The position numbers were made by a program, and so were the translations under genes. Below the pieces are notes generated by a model that saw only the letters and a program-made list of their open reading frames with translations, had not been told where the DNA came from and did no database searches. DNA of 64,000 nt from Burkholderiales bacterium (GTDB lineage Bacteria; Pseudomonadota; Gammaproteobacteria; Burkholderiales; SG8-39). Positions within the stretch are counted from its first letter, which is position 1. Each line of letters starts with the position of its first letter. The DNA lies in assembly GCA_020848075.1 (NCBI GenBank), contig JADLAV010000031.1, positions 154,840-218,839 on the forward strand, read 5' to 3'. This document shows positions 1,947 through 49,582 of the stretch, one piece after another.

Positions 1947-3302
1947 TCACGCCGCCTCGCCGAGGGGGACGCCCGGCACGGTCGCGTAGCCGCCCGGAAT
2001 GCTCACCAGGCAGCGCTTGTGTTCGATGTGGTAGGCGAACTCCTCCCTGAAATGGGCGATGAAGCTCTTCACCGGCAGCGCAGCCGCATCGCCGAGCGCG
2101 CAGATCGTGCGGCCCAGGATGTTGTCGGCGACGTTCACCAGGACGTCGAGATCCTCGGGCCGGCCGTGCCCGGTCTCGATCCGGTGCACCATCCGGTAGA
2201 GCCACCCCGTGCCCTCGCGGCACGGCGTGCACTGCCCGCAGGACTCCTCGAAGTAGAAGTAGGACAGCCGCTCGAGCGCCTTCACCATGCAGGTCGAGTC
2301 GTCCATGACGATCACCGCGCCGGAGCCGAGCATCGATCCGGCCTTGGCGATCGAGTCGTAGTCCATGTCCGTGCGCATCATGGCCTCGCCCGGCAGCACG
2401 GGCATCGACGAGCCGCCCGGGATCACCGCCTTCAGCGTCCGCCCGGCGCGCACGCCCCCGGCCATCGCGAGGAGCTTCGCGAAGGGCGTGCCGAGCCGCA
2501 CCTCGTAGTTTCCCGGACGCTCGACGTGTCCCGACACCGAGAAGATCTTGGTGCCGCCGTTGTTCGGACGCCCGAGCTCGAGGTAGCGTTCGGCGCCGTT
2601 CGCGACGATCCACGGGACCGCGGCGAACGTCTCGGTGTTGTTGATCGTGGTCGGCTTGCCGTACAGGCCGTAGCTCGCCGGGAACGGCGGCTTGAAGCGC
2701 GGCAGCCCCTTCTTGCCCTCGAGCGACTCGAGGAGCGCGGTTTCCTCGCCGCAGATGTATGCGCCCCAGCCGTGGTGCGCGTGCAGCTCGAAGGCAACGC
2801 CGCTCCCGAGGATGTTGCTGCCCAGGTAGCCGGCCGCACGCGCCTCTTCGATCGCCTCCTCGAAGCGCTGGTAGACGTCCCAGATCTCGCCGTGGATGTA
2901 GTTGTACCCGACGGTAGTCCCCGTCGCGTAGCCGGCGAGGACCATGCCCTCGATGACGCTGTGCGGGTTGTAGCGCAGAATGTCGCGGTCCTTGAACGTC
3001 CCGGGCTCGCCCTCGTCGGAGTTGCACACGATGTACTTCTGCCCCGGGAATTCGCGCGGCATGAAGCTCCACTTGAGCCCGGTCGGGAATCCGGCGCCGC
3101 CGCGCCCGCGCAGCGCCGACTTCTTCACCTCGGCGATCAGCGCATCGGGCGTCATCTTCTCGGCGATGACCTTGCGCAGCGCCCGGTAGCCGCCGCGCGC
3201 CTCGTAATCCTTCAACCGCCAGTTGAGCCCGTCGACGCCTTTCATGATCAGCGCGTCGGGTCCGTACGCGTCGGCGGGGAGCGGGGGGTGCGCAGTGGTC
3301 AC
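1947..3302 (-). CDS. nuoF: NADH-quinone oxidoreductase subunit F
   Basis: NADH-oxidising flavoprotein of complex I; it binds NADH, FMN and cluster N3. About 451 residues, normal for the family. It shows the nucleotide-binding [13 protein letters not shown], the FMN-site [24 protein letters not shown], and N3 ligands CGQCTPC plus a late cysteine in TICALGD. The listed 630-residue ORF begins far upstream inside nuoE; the family start matches [14 protein letters not shown], a GTG at 3302 that overlaps the nuoE stop as GTGA, so translational coupling is likely. The N-terminal 179 residues of the ORF-track entry are nuoE out of frame. Confidence 0.97.
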
Positions 3303-3775
3303 TTCGAGAGTTCCGCGAGCAGCTGGTCGATCCGGTCCGGCGTCATGAACGAAAGCATCCGCTTGTTGTTGTGGAGCATGACCGGCGCATCGCCGCAGGC
3401 GCCGAAGCACTCGCCCTCGCGCAGGGTGAACTTCCCGTCCGGCGTGGTCTCGTTCAGCTCCACGCCGAGGCGCTGCTTGAGGTGCTCGAGCGCGGCCACC
3501 GAACCGCGCAGCGCGCACGGAAGGTTGGTGCACACGCAGAGCTTGTTCGCGCCGGCGGGCGTGCAGTCGAACATCGTGTAGAAGGTCGCGACCTCGTAGA
3601 CCGCGACCGGAGGCATGCCGAGGTAGTGCGCCACGAAGTCCATCACCTCGGTCGAGAGGTGCCCCTTCTCCTCCTGGGCGATCACGAGGGCGGCCAGCAC
3701 CGCCGACTGCTTCTGGTCGGGCGGGTACTTGGTCAGCGCGCGGTCGACCTTGTCTAGCGCTTCTCGGGACAGCAT
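3299..3775 (-). CDS. nuoE: NADH-quinone oxidoreductase subunit E
   Basis: Thioredoxin-fold [2Fe-2S] subunit (cluster N1a) that pairs with NuoF in the dehydrogenase module. From ATG 3775 ([14 protein letters not shown]) it is 158 residues, the usual NuoE length. The four cluster cysteines are visible as CTNLPC (C-x4-C) and CFGAC (C-x3-C). The ORF track extends it to 507 residues by reading through nuoD in another frame; that extension has no NuoE character. The gene starts 8 bp after the nuoD stop and its own stop overlaps the nuoF GTG. Confidence 0.97.
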
Positions 3776-3783
3776 CGCTTCCG

Positions 3784-5037
3784 CTACCTGTCGATTTCTC
3801 CGAACACGATGTCCAGCGTTCCGATGATCGCCACGACATCGGCCAGCATGTGCCCCCGGGTGATCTCGTCCATGGCGCTCAGGTGCGCGAAGCCCGGCGG
3901 ACGGATCTTCATCCGGTAGGGCTTGTTGGCGCCGTCCGAGACGAAGTAGATCCCGAACTCGCCCTTCGGATGCTCGACCGCGGCATAGGCTTCCCCGGGA
4001 GGCACGTGGATCCCCTCGGTGAACAGCTTGAAGTGGTGGATCAGCTCTTCCATGTTGCTCTTCATGGCCACGCGCGAAGGCGGCGCGACCTTGTGGTCGT
4101 CCACGATCACCGGGCCCGGATTGGCGCGCAGCCAGTCGATGCACTGCCGGACGATGCGCGCCGACTGCCGCATCTCCTCCATCCGCACGAGATAGCGGTC
4201 GTAGCAGTCGCCGTTCACGCCCACCGGCACGTCGAAGTCGACCTTGTCGTACGCCGCATAGGGCTGCTTCTTGCGCAGGTCCCAGGCCACGCCCGAGCCG
4301 CGCAGCATCGGACCGGTGAACCCCCGCGCCACCGCCCGCTCGGGTGACACGACGCCGATGCCGACCGTGCGCTGCTTCCAGATGCGGTTCTCGGTGAGCA
4401 GGGTCTCGTACTCGTCCACGCGCTGCGGGAAGCGCTCGACGAAGCGCTCGATGAAGTCGAGCAGCGATCCGGACCGCGCCTCGTTCAGCCGCGCGACCTC
4501 CCGTGCGCTGCGATAGGGCGAGGCCTGGTACTGCGGCATCGTGTCCGGCAGGTCGCGGTACACGCCGCCGGGCCGGTAGTAGGCCGCATGCATGCGCGCG
4601 CCCGAAACCGCCTCGTAGCAGTCGAGCAGGTCCTCGCGCTCGCGGAAGCAGTACAGGAACATCGTCATGGCGCCGATGTCCAGGCCGTGCGTCCCGAGCC
4701 ACAGCAGGTGATTCAGGATCCGGGTGATCTCGTCGAACATCACGCGGATGTGCTGCGCGCGCACCGGGATCCCGATGCCGAGCAGCTTCTCCACCGCCAT
4801 GCAGTACGCGTGCTCGTTGCACATCATGGACACGTAGTCGAGGCGGTCCATGTACGGCAGCGACTGGACGTACGTCTTGTGCTCGGCGAGCTTCTCGGTC
4901 GCGCGATGCAGGAGCCCGATGTGCGGATCGGCGCGCATGATCACCTCGCCGTCCATCTCGAGGACGAGGCGCAGCACGCCGTGGGCCGCCGGATGCTGCG
5001 GGCCGAAGTTCAAGGTGTAGTTGCGGATCTCCGCCAT
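3784..5037 (-). CDS. nuoD: NADH-quinone oxidoreductase subunit D
   Basis: 49-kDa-type subunit of complex I that forms the quinone-binding cavity together with NuoB. 417 residues, full length. The N-terminus carries the conserved [11 protein letters not shown] loop and the C-terminus ends in VFGEIDR as in other NuoD proteins; the central part contains the expected [16 protein letters not shown] helix. It begins with ATG at 5037, 4 bp after the nuoC stop. nuoC and nuoD are separate here, not fused as in enterobacteria. Confidence 0.98.
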
Positions 5038-6778: not shown

Positions 6779-6862
6779 TGGTGCCGACGGTGAGATTCGA
6801 ACTCACACGGCAAAGCCACCGCCCCCTCAAGACGGCGTGTCTACCAATTTCACCACGTCGGC
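6779..6862 (-). tRNA. tRNA-Leu (anticodon GAG)
   Basis: The reverse strand folds as a leucine tRNA. The acceptor stem GCCGACG pairs with CGTCGGC, followed by discriminator A and an encoded CCA. The D-loop is leucine-like (AAATTGGTAGAC). The anticodon stem CCGTC/GGCGG has one T-G wobble and presents loop TTGAGGG (anticodon GAG), followed by a long class II variable arm and the T-arm GTGAG-TTCGAAT-CTCAC. It sits between secG and nuoA on the same strand, as in many betaproteobacteria. Length 84 nt including CCA. Confidence 0.97.
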
Positions 6863-46972: not shown

Positions 46973-48238
46973 ATGACGCCCCTGCTGCGTAACGTCATCG
47001 CCCGCTTCGGATCGCGCACCTCGCTGCCCTTTCGCGTGCAGTTCGCCGATGGATCGACGTGGCAGAACCATCCGGGCACGCCGGCCGCCACGTTCACGTT
47101 CAAGACGCGGGCCGCGCAGCTCGCCACGATCGTCTTCGGCCACATCGGGCTGCTCGACGCCTACTTCGACCGGCAGATCGAGATCGACGGCGATTTCAAT
47201 GCGATCTTCAAGATCGGCGGCGAGAGCGGCTTCGACCAGGGCGTGGACCGGCTCCCGATCCGGGTGCGCAACCAATGGCACGAGCTCCGGTTTTCGAACA
47301 AGACGATCGCGCAGGCCAAGACGAATGCGCGCTTCCACTACGGGCTCGGCGCGGATTTCTACCGGCAGTGGCTCGACGTGCCGCTGATGATGTACACCTG
47401 CGCGTACTGGAAGGAAGGAACGCGCAGCGTCGAGGAGGCGCAGGCGAACAAGATCGAGCACGTCTGCCGAAAGATCCGCCTCGCGGCGGGCGAATCGGTC
47501 ATCGACATCGGGTGCGGCTTCGGCGGCTTCATGTTCCAGGCCGTCGAGCGCTACGGGGTGCACGGCACCGCGCTCAACACCACCACCGAGCAGGTCGAGT
47601 GGCTGCGCGAGGAGGTGGAGCGGCGCGCGCTCGCCGACCGGATCAACGTGCGGGAGGCCGACTTCCGCGAGGTCGACCGCCAGTTCGACAAGGTGGTGTC
47701 GATCGGCGTGCTGGAGCACGCGGGCCGCGACCAATTGCGCGCGGTGGTGAAGGCCCACGCCGACTTTCTGAAGCCCGGCGGGCTCGGCATGCTGCACTTC
47801 ATCGGCCACGTGGGCGTGCGCGACACCGAGTTCTACATCCGCAGGCACGTCTTCCCCGGCGGCTGGATCCCGAGCCTCGCCGAGGCGATCACCGCCATGG
47901 AAGACTGCGGGCTCGAGGTGATCGACATCGAGAACCTGCGGCGCCACTACGCGCTCACGCTCGACGCGTGGGCGGAGCGCTTCGATCGCAACTGGACGGC
48001 GATCCAGGCGCTCGACCCGGGGAAGTTCGACGAGCGCTTCCGCCGCATCTGGCGGGTGTACCTGCGCGGCTGCGCCGAAATGTTCCGCGCGCCGCACGGC
48101 CGCACGCATCTTTTCCAGATCGTCTTCGGCAAGGGCAACATCGACCGCAAGCGCTACCCCATGAGCCGCGCGTTCCTCTACGACGACGCGGCACGGGCGC
48201 GCCGTGCGGAGGACGCGTCGCTCCCTCGCGCGGCCTAG
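46973..48238 (+). CDS. Cyclopropane-fatty-acyl-phospholipid synthase family methyltransferase
   Basis: SAM-dependent enzyme that adds a methylene or methyl group to unsaturated acyl chains of membrane phospholipids. 421 residues. SAM motif VIDIGCGFGGFMFQAV; active-site signatures MMYTCAYWKEG (Cys), SIGVLEHAG (Glu) and HFIGHVG (His), FPGGWIPSL, and a Tyr in RRHYALTLDAWAERF. A TAAACT element about 45 bp upstream may be its -10. The FAD oxidoreductase gene starts within 10 bp, which suggests the product is modified further rather than left as a plain cyclopropane. Confidence 0.93.
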   Translation: MTPLLRNVIARFGSRTSLPFRVQFADGSTWQNHPGTPAATFTFKTRAAQLATIVFGHIGLLDAYFDRQIEIDGDFNAIFKIGGESGFDQGVDRLPIRVRNQWHELRFSNKTIAQAKTNARFHYGLGADFYRQWLDVPLMMYTCAYWKEGTRSVEEAQANKIEHVCRKIRLAAGESVIDIGCGFGGFMFQAVERYGVHGTALNTTTEQVEWLREEVERRALADRINVREADFREVDRQFDKVVSIGVLEHAGRDQLRAVVKAHADFLKPGGLGMLHFIGHVGVRDTEFYIRRHVFPGGWIPSLAEAITAMEDCGLEVIDIENLRRHYALTLDAWAERFDRNWTAIQALDPGKFDERFRRIWRVYLRGCAEMFRAPHGRTHLFQIVFGKGNIDRKRYPMSRAFLYDDAARARRAEDASLPRAA

Positions 48239-48247
48239 ACGAAAGTG

Positions 48248-49582
48248 ATGGAAACGTACGCGGATCGCAAGAACCGGCTCGTCCGCGACCTCGCCGCGAC
48301 CGCGGGCGCGCCGCCGCGTCTGTGCAAGGACACCTCCAACCTGTTCCGCGACCGCGCACCGGGACCGCGGCGGCGCCTGGACGTTCGCGCCTTCAATCAC
48401 GTGCTTGCCGTCGACCGGGAGGCGGGCTGGGTGGATGCGGAGGGAATGACGCCGTATGCGGCGCTCACGGAAGCGACGCTCGCGCACGGCGTCATGGTCT
48501 GCGTCGTCCCGCAGTTGAAGTCGATCACCATCGGCGGCGCGGTCGCGGGCGTGGGCATCGAGTCGTCCTCCTTCCGGCACGGGCTGGTGCACGAGTCGAT
48601 CGAGGAGTTCGAGGTGCTCCTGGGCGACGGTTCGGTGGTGCTCGCCCGGCCGGACAACGAGCACGCGGACCTCTTCTTCGGTTTCCCGAACACCTACGGG
48701 ACGCTCGGCTACGCCCTGCGCGTGCGCGCGAAGACCGTGCCCGTGCGCCCGTTCGTGCGGCTGACCCACGTCCGGCACACCGATCCGCGCGCGTACTTCG
48801 CCGAGCTCGAGCGCGCCTGCGGCACCGATGCGGACTTCGTCGATGGCGTGGTCTTCGGTCCCGCCGAGCAGGTGCTCACCGTGGGCCGATTCGTCGACGA
48901 GGCCCCGTACGCCAGCGACTACACTTACGAGCGGATCTATTACCGCTCGCTCCGGACCCGTACGGAGGACTACCTCGGCGTGCACGACTACATCTGGCGC
49001 TGGGACACCGACTGGTTCTGGTGCTCCAAGAACCTCCATGCCCAGAACCCGATCGTCCGGCGCCTGCTCGGCCGCAAGCGCCTGAACTCGGTCTTCTATA
49101 CGAAGGTGATGCGCTGGAACGCGCGCGTCGGCCTCACCCGCCGCATCGATCGCATGCTCGGCAAGCATCCGGAGTCGGTGATCCAGGACGTCGACATTCC
49201 GATCGAGCGCGCGCCCGAGTTCCTCGAGTTCTTCCTGCGCGAGATCGGGATCCTGCCGGTCTGGATCTGCCCGTTCCGGTCGCCGGATGCCGGGCGGCGC
49301 TGGCCGCTCTTTCCGGCCGATCCGCGCAAGCTCTACGTGAACTTCGGCTTCTGGGACGTGGTCCGCCCCGACGAGCCGCATCCGCCCGGGCACTTCAATC
49401 GCCTGGTCGAGCGCAAGGTGCACGAACTCGCCGGGATCAAGTCGCTCTACTCGGACGCCTACTTCACGCCCGACGAGTTCTGGGCGAGCTACGACCGCGC
49501 CGCCTACGAAGCGTTGAAGGCCCGGTACGACCCCAACCGCGTCTTCAAGGATCTGTACGAGAAAACGGTCTTGAAGCAGTGA
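48248..49582 (+). CDS. FAD-binding oxidoreductase (FAD_binding_4 type) paired with the CFAS-like enzyme
   Basis: About 444 residues from ATG 48248 (a GTG three bases earlier is possible). The PCMH-type FAD domain (about 20-180) has LCKDTSNLFRDR, NHVLAVDREAGWVDAEGMTPYAAL and QLKSITIGGAVAGVGIESSSFRHG. The rest resembles DHCR24-like proteins (DYIWRWDTDWFWCSKN, LYVNFGFWDVVRP, YSDAYFTPDEFWASYD). Such oxidoreductases adjoin CFAS-like methyltransferases in tuberculostearic-acid loci of actinobacteria and in furan fatty acid loci of alphaproteobacteria. Here it is 9 bp after the methyltransferase, so a joint role in branched or modified fatty acids is inferred. Confidence 0.85.
   Translation: METYADRKNRLVRDLAATAGAPPRLCKDTSNLFRDRAPGPRRRLDVRAFNHVLAVDREAGWVDAEGMTPYAALTEATLAHGVMVCVVPQLKSITIGGAVAGVGIESSSFRHGLVHESIEEFEVLLGDGSVVLARPDNEHADLFFGFPNTYGTLGYALRVRAKTVPVRPFVRLTHVRHTDPRAYFAELERACGTDADFVDGVVFGPAEQVLTVGRFVDEAPYASDYTYERIYYRSLRTRTEDYLGVHDYIWRWDTDWFWCSKNLHAQNPIVRRLLGRKRLNSVFYTKVMRWNARVGLTRRIDRMLGKHPESVIQDVDIPIERAPEFLEFFLREIGILPVWICPFRSPDAGRRWPLFPADPRKLYVNFGFWDVVRPDEPHPPGHFNRLVERKVHELAGIKSLYSDAYFTPDEFWASYDRAAYEALKARYDPNRVFKDLYEKTVLKQ

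Follow-up and report, generated by a model that had tools for sequence, protein, structure and literature searches.

Mid-chain methyl-branched fatty acids are made in actinobacteria by the bfaAB (tmsAB) operon, whose product is 10-methylstearic acid (Machida 2017, PMC5660069; Blitzblau 2021, PMC7791843). BfaB and BfaA together make 10-methyl acids, BfaA carrying out the reducing step (PMC7791843, PMC5660069). In gammaproteobacteria, 10-methylpalmitate is made by tmpBA, in which the methyltransferase gene precedes that of TmpA, a flavoprotein described as geranylgeranyl-reductase-like (PMC7791843). Both BfaB and TmpB generate a methylene product (PMC7791843) by a reaction related to the ring closure of E. 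coli Cfa, in which bicarbonate, liganded by Glu239, His266 and Tyr317, deprotonates a protonated-cyclopropane-like intermediate (PMC11387697). A CFAS-family methylase and a flavoprotein are also found in the UfaM/UfaD/UfaO system of the furan fatty acids, where UfaD is a phytoene-desaturase/amine-oxidase-type NAD-FAD flavoprotein (PMC7380195).

The gene pair described here lies in a window of 64,000 nucleotides (the whole stretch of DNA that was analysed) from a Burkholderiales genome, and, judged by its sequence, it is best read as a new variant of the bfa and tmp pathways. Very likely, the two genes form an operon whose products are membrane fatty acids with a mid-chain methyl branch, made in two steps from unsaturated chains. 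The two open reading frames are confirmed, adjacent and co-directional (+, 46973-49582; Table 1), and the FAD gene follows within 10 bp of the methyltransferase gene, as stated in the first-pass annotation: the gap to the methyltransferase stop is 9 bp with the start at ATG 48248 and 6 bp with the start at GTG 48245. Judged by eye, the pair is flanked by recJ/KTSC-like genes on one side and by a histone-deacetylase-like gene in convergent orientation on the other. Like bfaAB, the locus is a two-gene operon with a CFAS-family methyltransferase, and its reductase is of the same family as BfaA (46-59% identity). Unlike in bfaAB, where the reductase gene comes first, the methyltransferase gene is first and the FAD gene second, as in tmpBA and as in about 50 relatives of the window locus; the methyltransferase is also from another clade than BfaB, and the host is Gram-negative. 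The difference from tmpBA concerns the reductase, which is BfaA-type in the window, whereas TmpA is a geranylgeranyl-reductase-type flavoprotein.

Table 1. Positions of the features discussed in the text, in window coordinates
Feature	Position	Strand	Remark
CFAS-family SAM-dependent methyltransferase, 421 aa	46973..48238	+	Pfam CMAS 2e-72
Thr142-Cys143 codons (E. coli Cfa Ser138-Cys139)	47396..47401	+	YTC signature of reductase-partnered methyltransferases
Leu247-Glu248 codons (E. coli Cfa Phe238-Glu239)	47711..47716	+	Non-Phe beside bicarbonate ligand
BfaA-family FAD_binding_4 (VAO/PCMH) protein, predicted methylene-fatty-acyl reductase, 444 aa from ATG	48248..49582	+	Pfam FAD_binding_4 2e-12
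WRWDTDWFWCS motif, residues 250-260 of the FAD enzyme	48995..49027	+	Invariant in 26-sequence cross-phylum alignment
tRNA-Leu(GAG)	6779..6862	-	Sole tRNA of the window; no further Rfam match at gathering threshold

The AF2 model of the FAD enzyme (mean pLDDT 87) has the VAO/PCMH fold, and its best PDB matches are cytokinin dehydrogenase and DprE1; the earlier description of this enzyme as DHCR24-like is correct at the level of the fold superfamily only. Homologues are found by tblastn in plasmid records of Variovorax, Nonomuraea, Nocardia, Tsukamurella and Prescottella, and the window reductase is 46% identical to the Tsukamurella protein and 54% to the Nonomuraea protein. The gene order at the Tsukamurella locus (RecR, YbaB/Ebf, amidase, SRPBCC, FAD oxidoreductase, methyltransferase) agrees with that around bfaAB in M. 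chlorophenolicum, where the operon was tested by experiment, and in its relatives (PMC5660069). Among the matches listed, identity to the window reductase is about 50-59% for many homologues from actinobacteria that have a BfaB gene next to them. Scanning 84,980 species genomes gives at least 596 pattern matches, of which at least 595 are relatives, and the best 80 are from Beta- and Gammaproteobacteria, Actinomycetota, Nitrospira, Acidobacteria and candidate phyla. The BfaA-type proteins and the window reductase belong to the same Pfam family, with homology over the full length, and the reductase tree is that of a compact family. Because of the syntenic Tsukamurella orthologue, the Nonomuraea protein and the relatives across phyla, the window FAD enzyme is assigned by sequence to the BfaA family, and it is predicted to be a methylene-fatty-acyl reductase. 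It is related to BfaA of actinobacteria and to homologues from proteobacteria. In a phylum-wide sample of 299 genomes, a BfaA-type gene is found at E<=1e-20 only in the window's own genome, and therefore the distribution of this gene is patchy.

The link with BfaA/BfaB (TmsA/TmsB) drawn in the first pass is supported for the reductase. The methyltransferase is only 32-35% identical to BfaB and falls in a separate clade. In a CFAS tree of 87 proteins, including 28 window-type rows and 14 BfaB, the window type, BfaB and the Nitrospira/candidate-phylum type (with E. coli Cfa) are fully supported separate groups, and the gammaproteobacterial TmpB-like methyltransferases are a further group, such that the window-type and TmpB-like enzymes are separate clades. 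The window type forms its own beta/gammaproteobacterial clade, distinct from BfaB, UfaM and housekeeping Cfa, and the window enzyme is predicted to be a methylene-forming fatty acyl phospholipid methylase of this clade. In the best tree, the window type and BfaB are not sisters; their joint clade is not rejected in the AU test (p=0.21), and a common origin of the window type with BfaB alone remains compatible with the sequences. A single clade of the window type, BfaB and the Nitrospira type is rejected (p=0.0004). Orthology of the window methyltransferase with BfaB is supported neither by the identity nor by the tree. Actinobacteria have a BfaA-type gene followed by BfaB, and in proteobacteria the window-type methyltransferase precedes the BfaA-type gene. 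Since the reductase tree is compact and the methyltransferase groups are separate, one reductase family has been combined with no fewer than two lineages of methyltransferase, and probably with three or more.

The same-strand order of methyltransferase and then FAD gene is present in about 50 window-type loci, mostly with short gaps or overlaps. Among 81 related genomes, 18 have both genes, one has the window-type methyltransferase alone, three have the FAD gene alone and 59 have neither (Fisher p=5e-14, shared ancestry not corrected for). The pairing of the two genes is not due to chance. Zeimonas arvi and Variovorax sp. PDNC026 are cultured carriers. Of the 32 genomes in the genus to which Nitrospira sp. 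CG24E belongs, 14 have both genes of the corresponding pair, two the reductase alone, none the methyltransferase alone and 16 neither gene (p=5e-7, shared ancestry not corrected for); the methyltransferase of this Nitrospira pair is of another lineage than the window type.

More complex arrangements are also seen. At locus L070, two divergent window-type methyltransferase genes (1639-2775, -; 2758-4035, +) adjoin one reductase gene, the second copy being 64% identical to the window protein (as G007:C17); perhaps these copies are paralogues with different substrate chains. In a Burkholderiales MAG (L065, 1175-5329), a Cfa-type (Ser/Phe) methyltransferase is followed by a window-type methyltransferase and then by a BfaA-type reductase, with a universal-stress-like protein downstream of this array, as in the Variovorax locus L032. 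In a genome of the same genus as the window (G001, locus L012), the reductase is split over two frames and has no adjacent window-type methyltransferase, from decay or from assembly indels. Pairs of CFAS-like and BfaA-type genes in Patescibacteria, Magasanikbacteria and Woesearchaeota bins (L091, L095, L097 and L099) are either real or binning errors.

The active site of the window methyltransferase has been described in the first pass as that of a complete cyclopropane synthase. Indeed, Cys139, Glu239, His266, Ile268 and Tyr317 of E. coli Cfa are all kept (here Cys143, Glu248, His275, Ile277 and Tyr326), but the flanking substitutions Ser138->Thr and Phe238->Leu are unlike cyclopropane synthases. 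The bicarbonate-site residues are not diagnostic for Cfa, because BfaB has them too. All 54 methyltransferases adjoining a BfaA-type gene have Thr at position 138 and a residue other than Phe at position 238, and this YTC/non-Phe signature is also present in the TmpB-like methyltransferases adjoining geranylgeranyl-reductase-like genes. Ser138 and Phe238 are found in E. coli, Sinorhizobium and own-genome Cfa and in nearly all standalone Cfa-like copies; the Cfa-type exceptions without Phe238 are L177 (Ser, Ile) and L263 (Ser, Leu). The signature was spotted once the groups had been defined, and the count over 81 genomes is an only partly independent check; the signature is a correlation with about three supported independent contrasts, too few for a sign test. 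A limited literature search (patents outside its scope) gave no description of the two-residue signature. From their place beside Cys139 and Glu239, the substitutions might well change how long the cation lasts or where it lies.

A YTC methyltransferase is present in 33 of the 81 genomes, and 32 of these 33 also have a reductase, which is BfaA-type in 20 genomes and TmpA-type in 12, with both types in none, whereas only one of the 48 genomes without a YTC methyltransferase has a reductase, which is fragmentary (p=3e-20, shared ancestry not corrected for). Neither type of reductase was found in G026, which has a YTC methyltransferase. The simpler idea that YTC is always accompanied by a BfaA-type gene failed: in several related genomes a YTC enzyme occurs in the absence of that gene, and almost all of these genomes have a TmpA-like gene instead. 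The TmpB-like YTC methyltransferase adjoins a geranylgeranyl-reductase-family flavoprotein (TIGR02032-like); that these genes are tmpBA is concluded from the published description and the gene order, not from sequence comparison. Only G040 has a window-type methyltransferase in the absence of a BfaA-type gene, and it carries TmpA. Where a BfaA-type gene is present but unlinked, in gammaproteobacteria and in one genome of the Geminicoccaceae, there is a YTC methyltransferase and no TmpA. In the window's genome, a TmpA homologue is absent at E<=1e-20. The BfaA-type and TmpA-type reductases look interchangeable, because they occur in 20 and 12 genomes, respectively, never together, and because G040 has TmpA in place of BfaA. 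It is conceivable, though we hold this only tentatively, that mid-chain methyl-branching is built from exchangeable modules and has several origins: at least two or three lineages of CFAS-type enzymes would independently have given up closing the ring in favour of forming a methylene, through Ser138->Thr together with Phe238->Leu/Thr/Cys/Met, and each would have been coupled to a BfaA-type or a TmpA-type reductase. If true, this switch would let genomes predict methyl-branched acids across Pseudomonadota, Nitrospirota and candidate phyla.

In the proposed pathway, the methyltransferase would transfer the methyl group of SAM to a mono-unsaturated chain bound in a phospholipid, at its cis double bond. 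No ring closure would follow; the cation would rearrange, and the new methyl would lose a proton, generating an exo-methylene branch, which the FAD enzyme, as suggested by its family, would reduce to the methyl branch. The usual betaproteobacterial chains are 16:1 delta9 and 18:1 delta11, from which the likely products would be 10-methyl-16:0 and 11- or 12-methyl-18:0. Because the identity to BfaB is low, it is the signature and the partner gene that point to methylene formation rather than ring formation. The first pass had suggested that the product could be an unreported membrane lipid; instead, it is probably of a known class, the mid-chain methyl-branched acids, because the reductase is of the BfaA family, the UfaM/UfaD link is not supported and neither is orthology of the methyltransferase with BfaB.

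The FAD enzyme might also oxidise or desaturate the branched chain after the same first step, or the substrate might not be a phospholipid acyl chain, and then the lipid would not be a saturated methyl-branched acid. The best structural matches of the FAD fold are oxidases and dehydrogenases and the methyltransferase clade is uncharacterised, both in agreement with such a variant, but it is unlikely given that BfaA-family enzymes act as reductases in vivo and that the alternating partner in related genomes, the geranylgeranyl-reductase-like protein, is also of a double-bond reductase family. Somewhat less likely still, the methyltransferase is a second cyclopropane synthase, with the FAD enzyme acting elsewhere and their adjacency being incidental. 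All bicarbonate-site residues are kept, and the nearest curated families are cyclopropane synthases, though with scores far below the cut-offs; however, this would leave unexplained the linkage and co-occurrence of the two genes, and Thr142/Leu247 differ from the Ser/Phe of Cfa-type enzymes. The genome also has a separate housekeeping Cfa (C20:108753), which speaks against this reading and also against the window enzyme being the housekeeping copy itself.

A furan fatty acid route, with UfaM-like methylation followed by UfaD-like desaturation, is very improbable. The general likeness of a CFAS-family methylase with a flavoprotein is there, but Azospirillum UfaD matches Amino_oxidase and the window FAD enzyme matches FAD_binding_4, the UfaM-type enzymes are without the Cys139/His266 pair (Gln at 266), and a DUF1365 (UfaO) gene was not found in the window's genome. 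The first-pass link with UfaM/UfaD is rejected on these differences in protein family and active site and on the missing UfaO. An Ufa-like cluster, UfaD-UfaO(DUF1365)-UfaM, does occur in another betaproteobacterium, on a plasmid of Azoarcus sp. KH32C (L153, 813-4086), and the furan route may therefore exist in betaproteobacteria, not at the window locus.

The reading of the pair as a methyl-branching operon can be compared with lipid data at the level of groups. The acid 11-methyl-16:0 is reported for Nitrospira moscoviensis, N. bockiana and N. calida but is not given for N. marina (PMC3660363; table read from text); compared with the genomes at group level, this distribution fits, as a hint, a patchy methyl-branch pathway in Nitrospira. 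For Betaproteobacteria, the literature search for 10-methyl acids gave only the ambiguous MIDI summed feature 9, and it gave no lipid profiles of carriers of the window-type clade.

The active-site signature and the reductase exchange are a more interesting part of these findings than the operon itself. With the signature, mutagenesis can test what makes a CFAS-type enzyme close the ring or form a methylene, and the signature also offers new methyltransferases for making branched lipids. 10-Methyl fatty acids serve as biomarkers of actinobacteria and of some sulfate reducers; if the BfaA-type operon also occurs across Nitrospira and across beta- and gammaproteobacteria that have not been cultured, this biomarker would blur.
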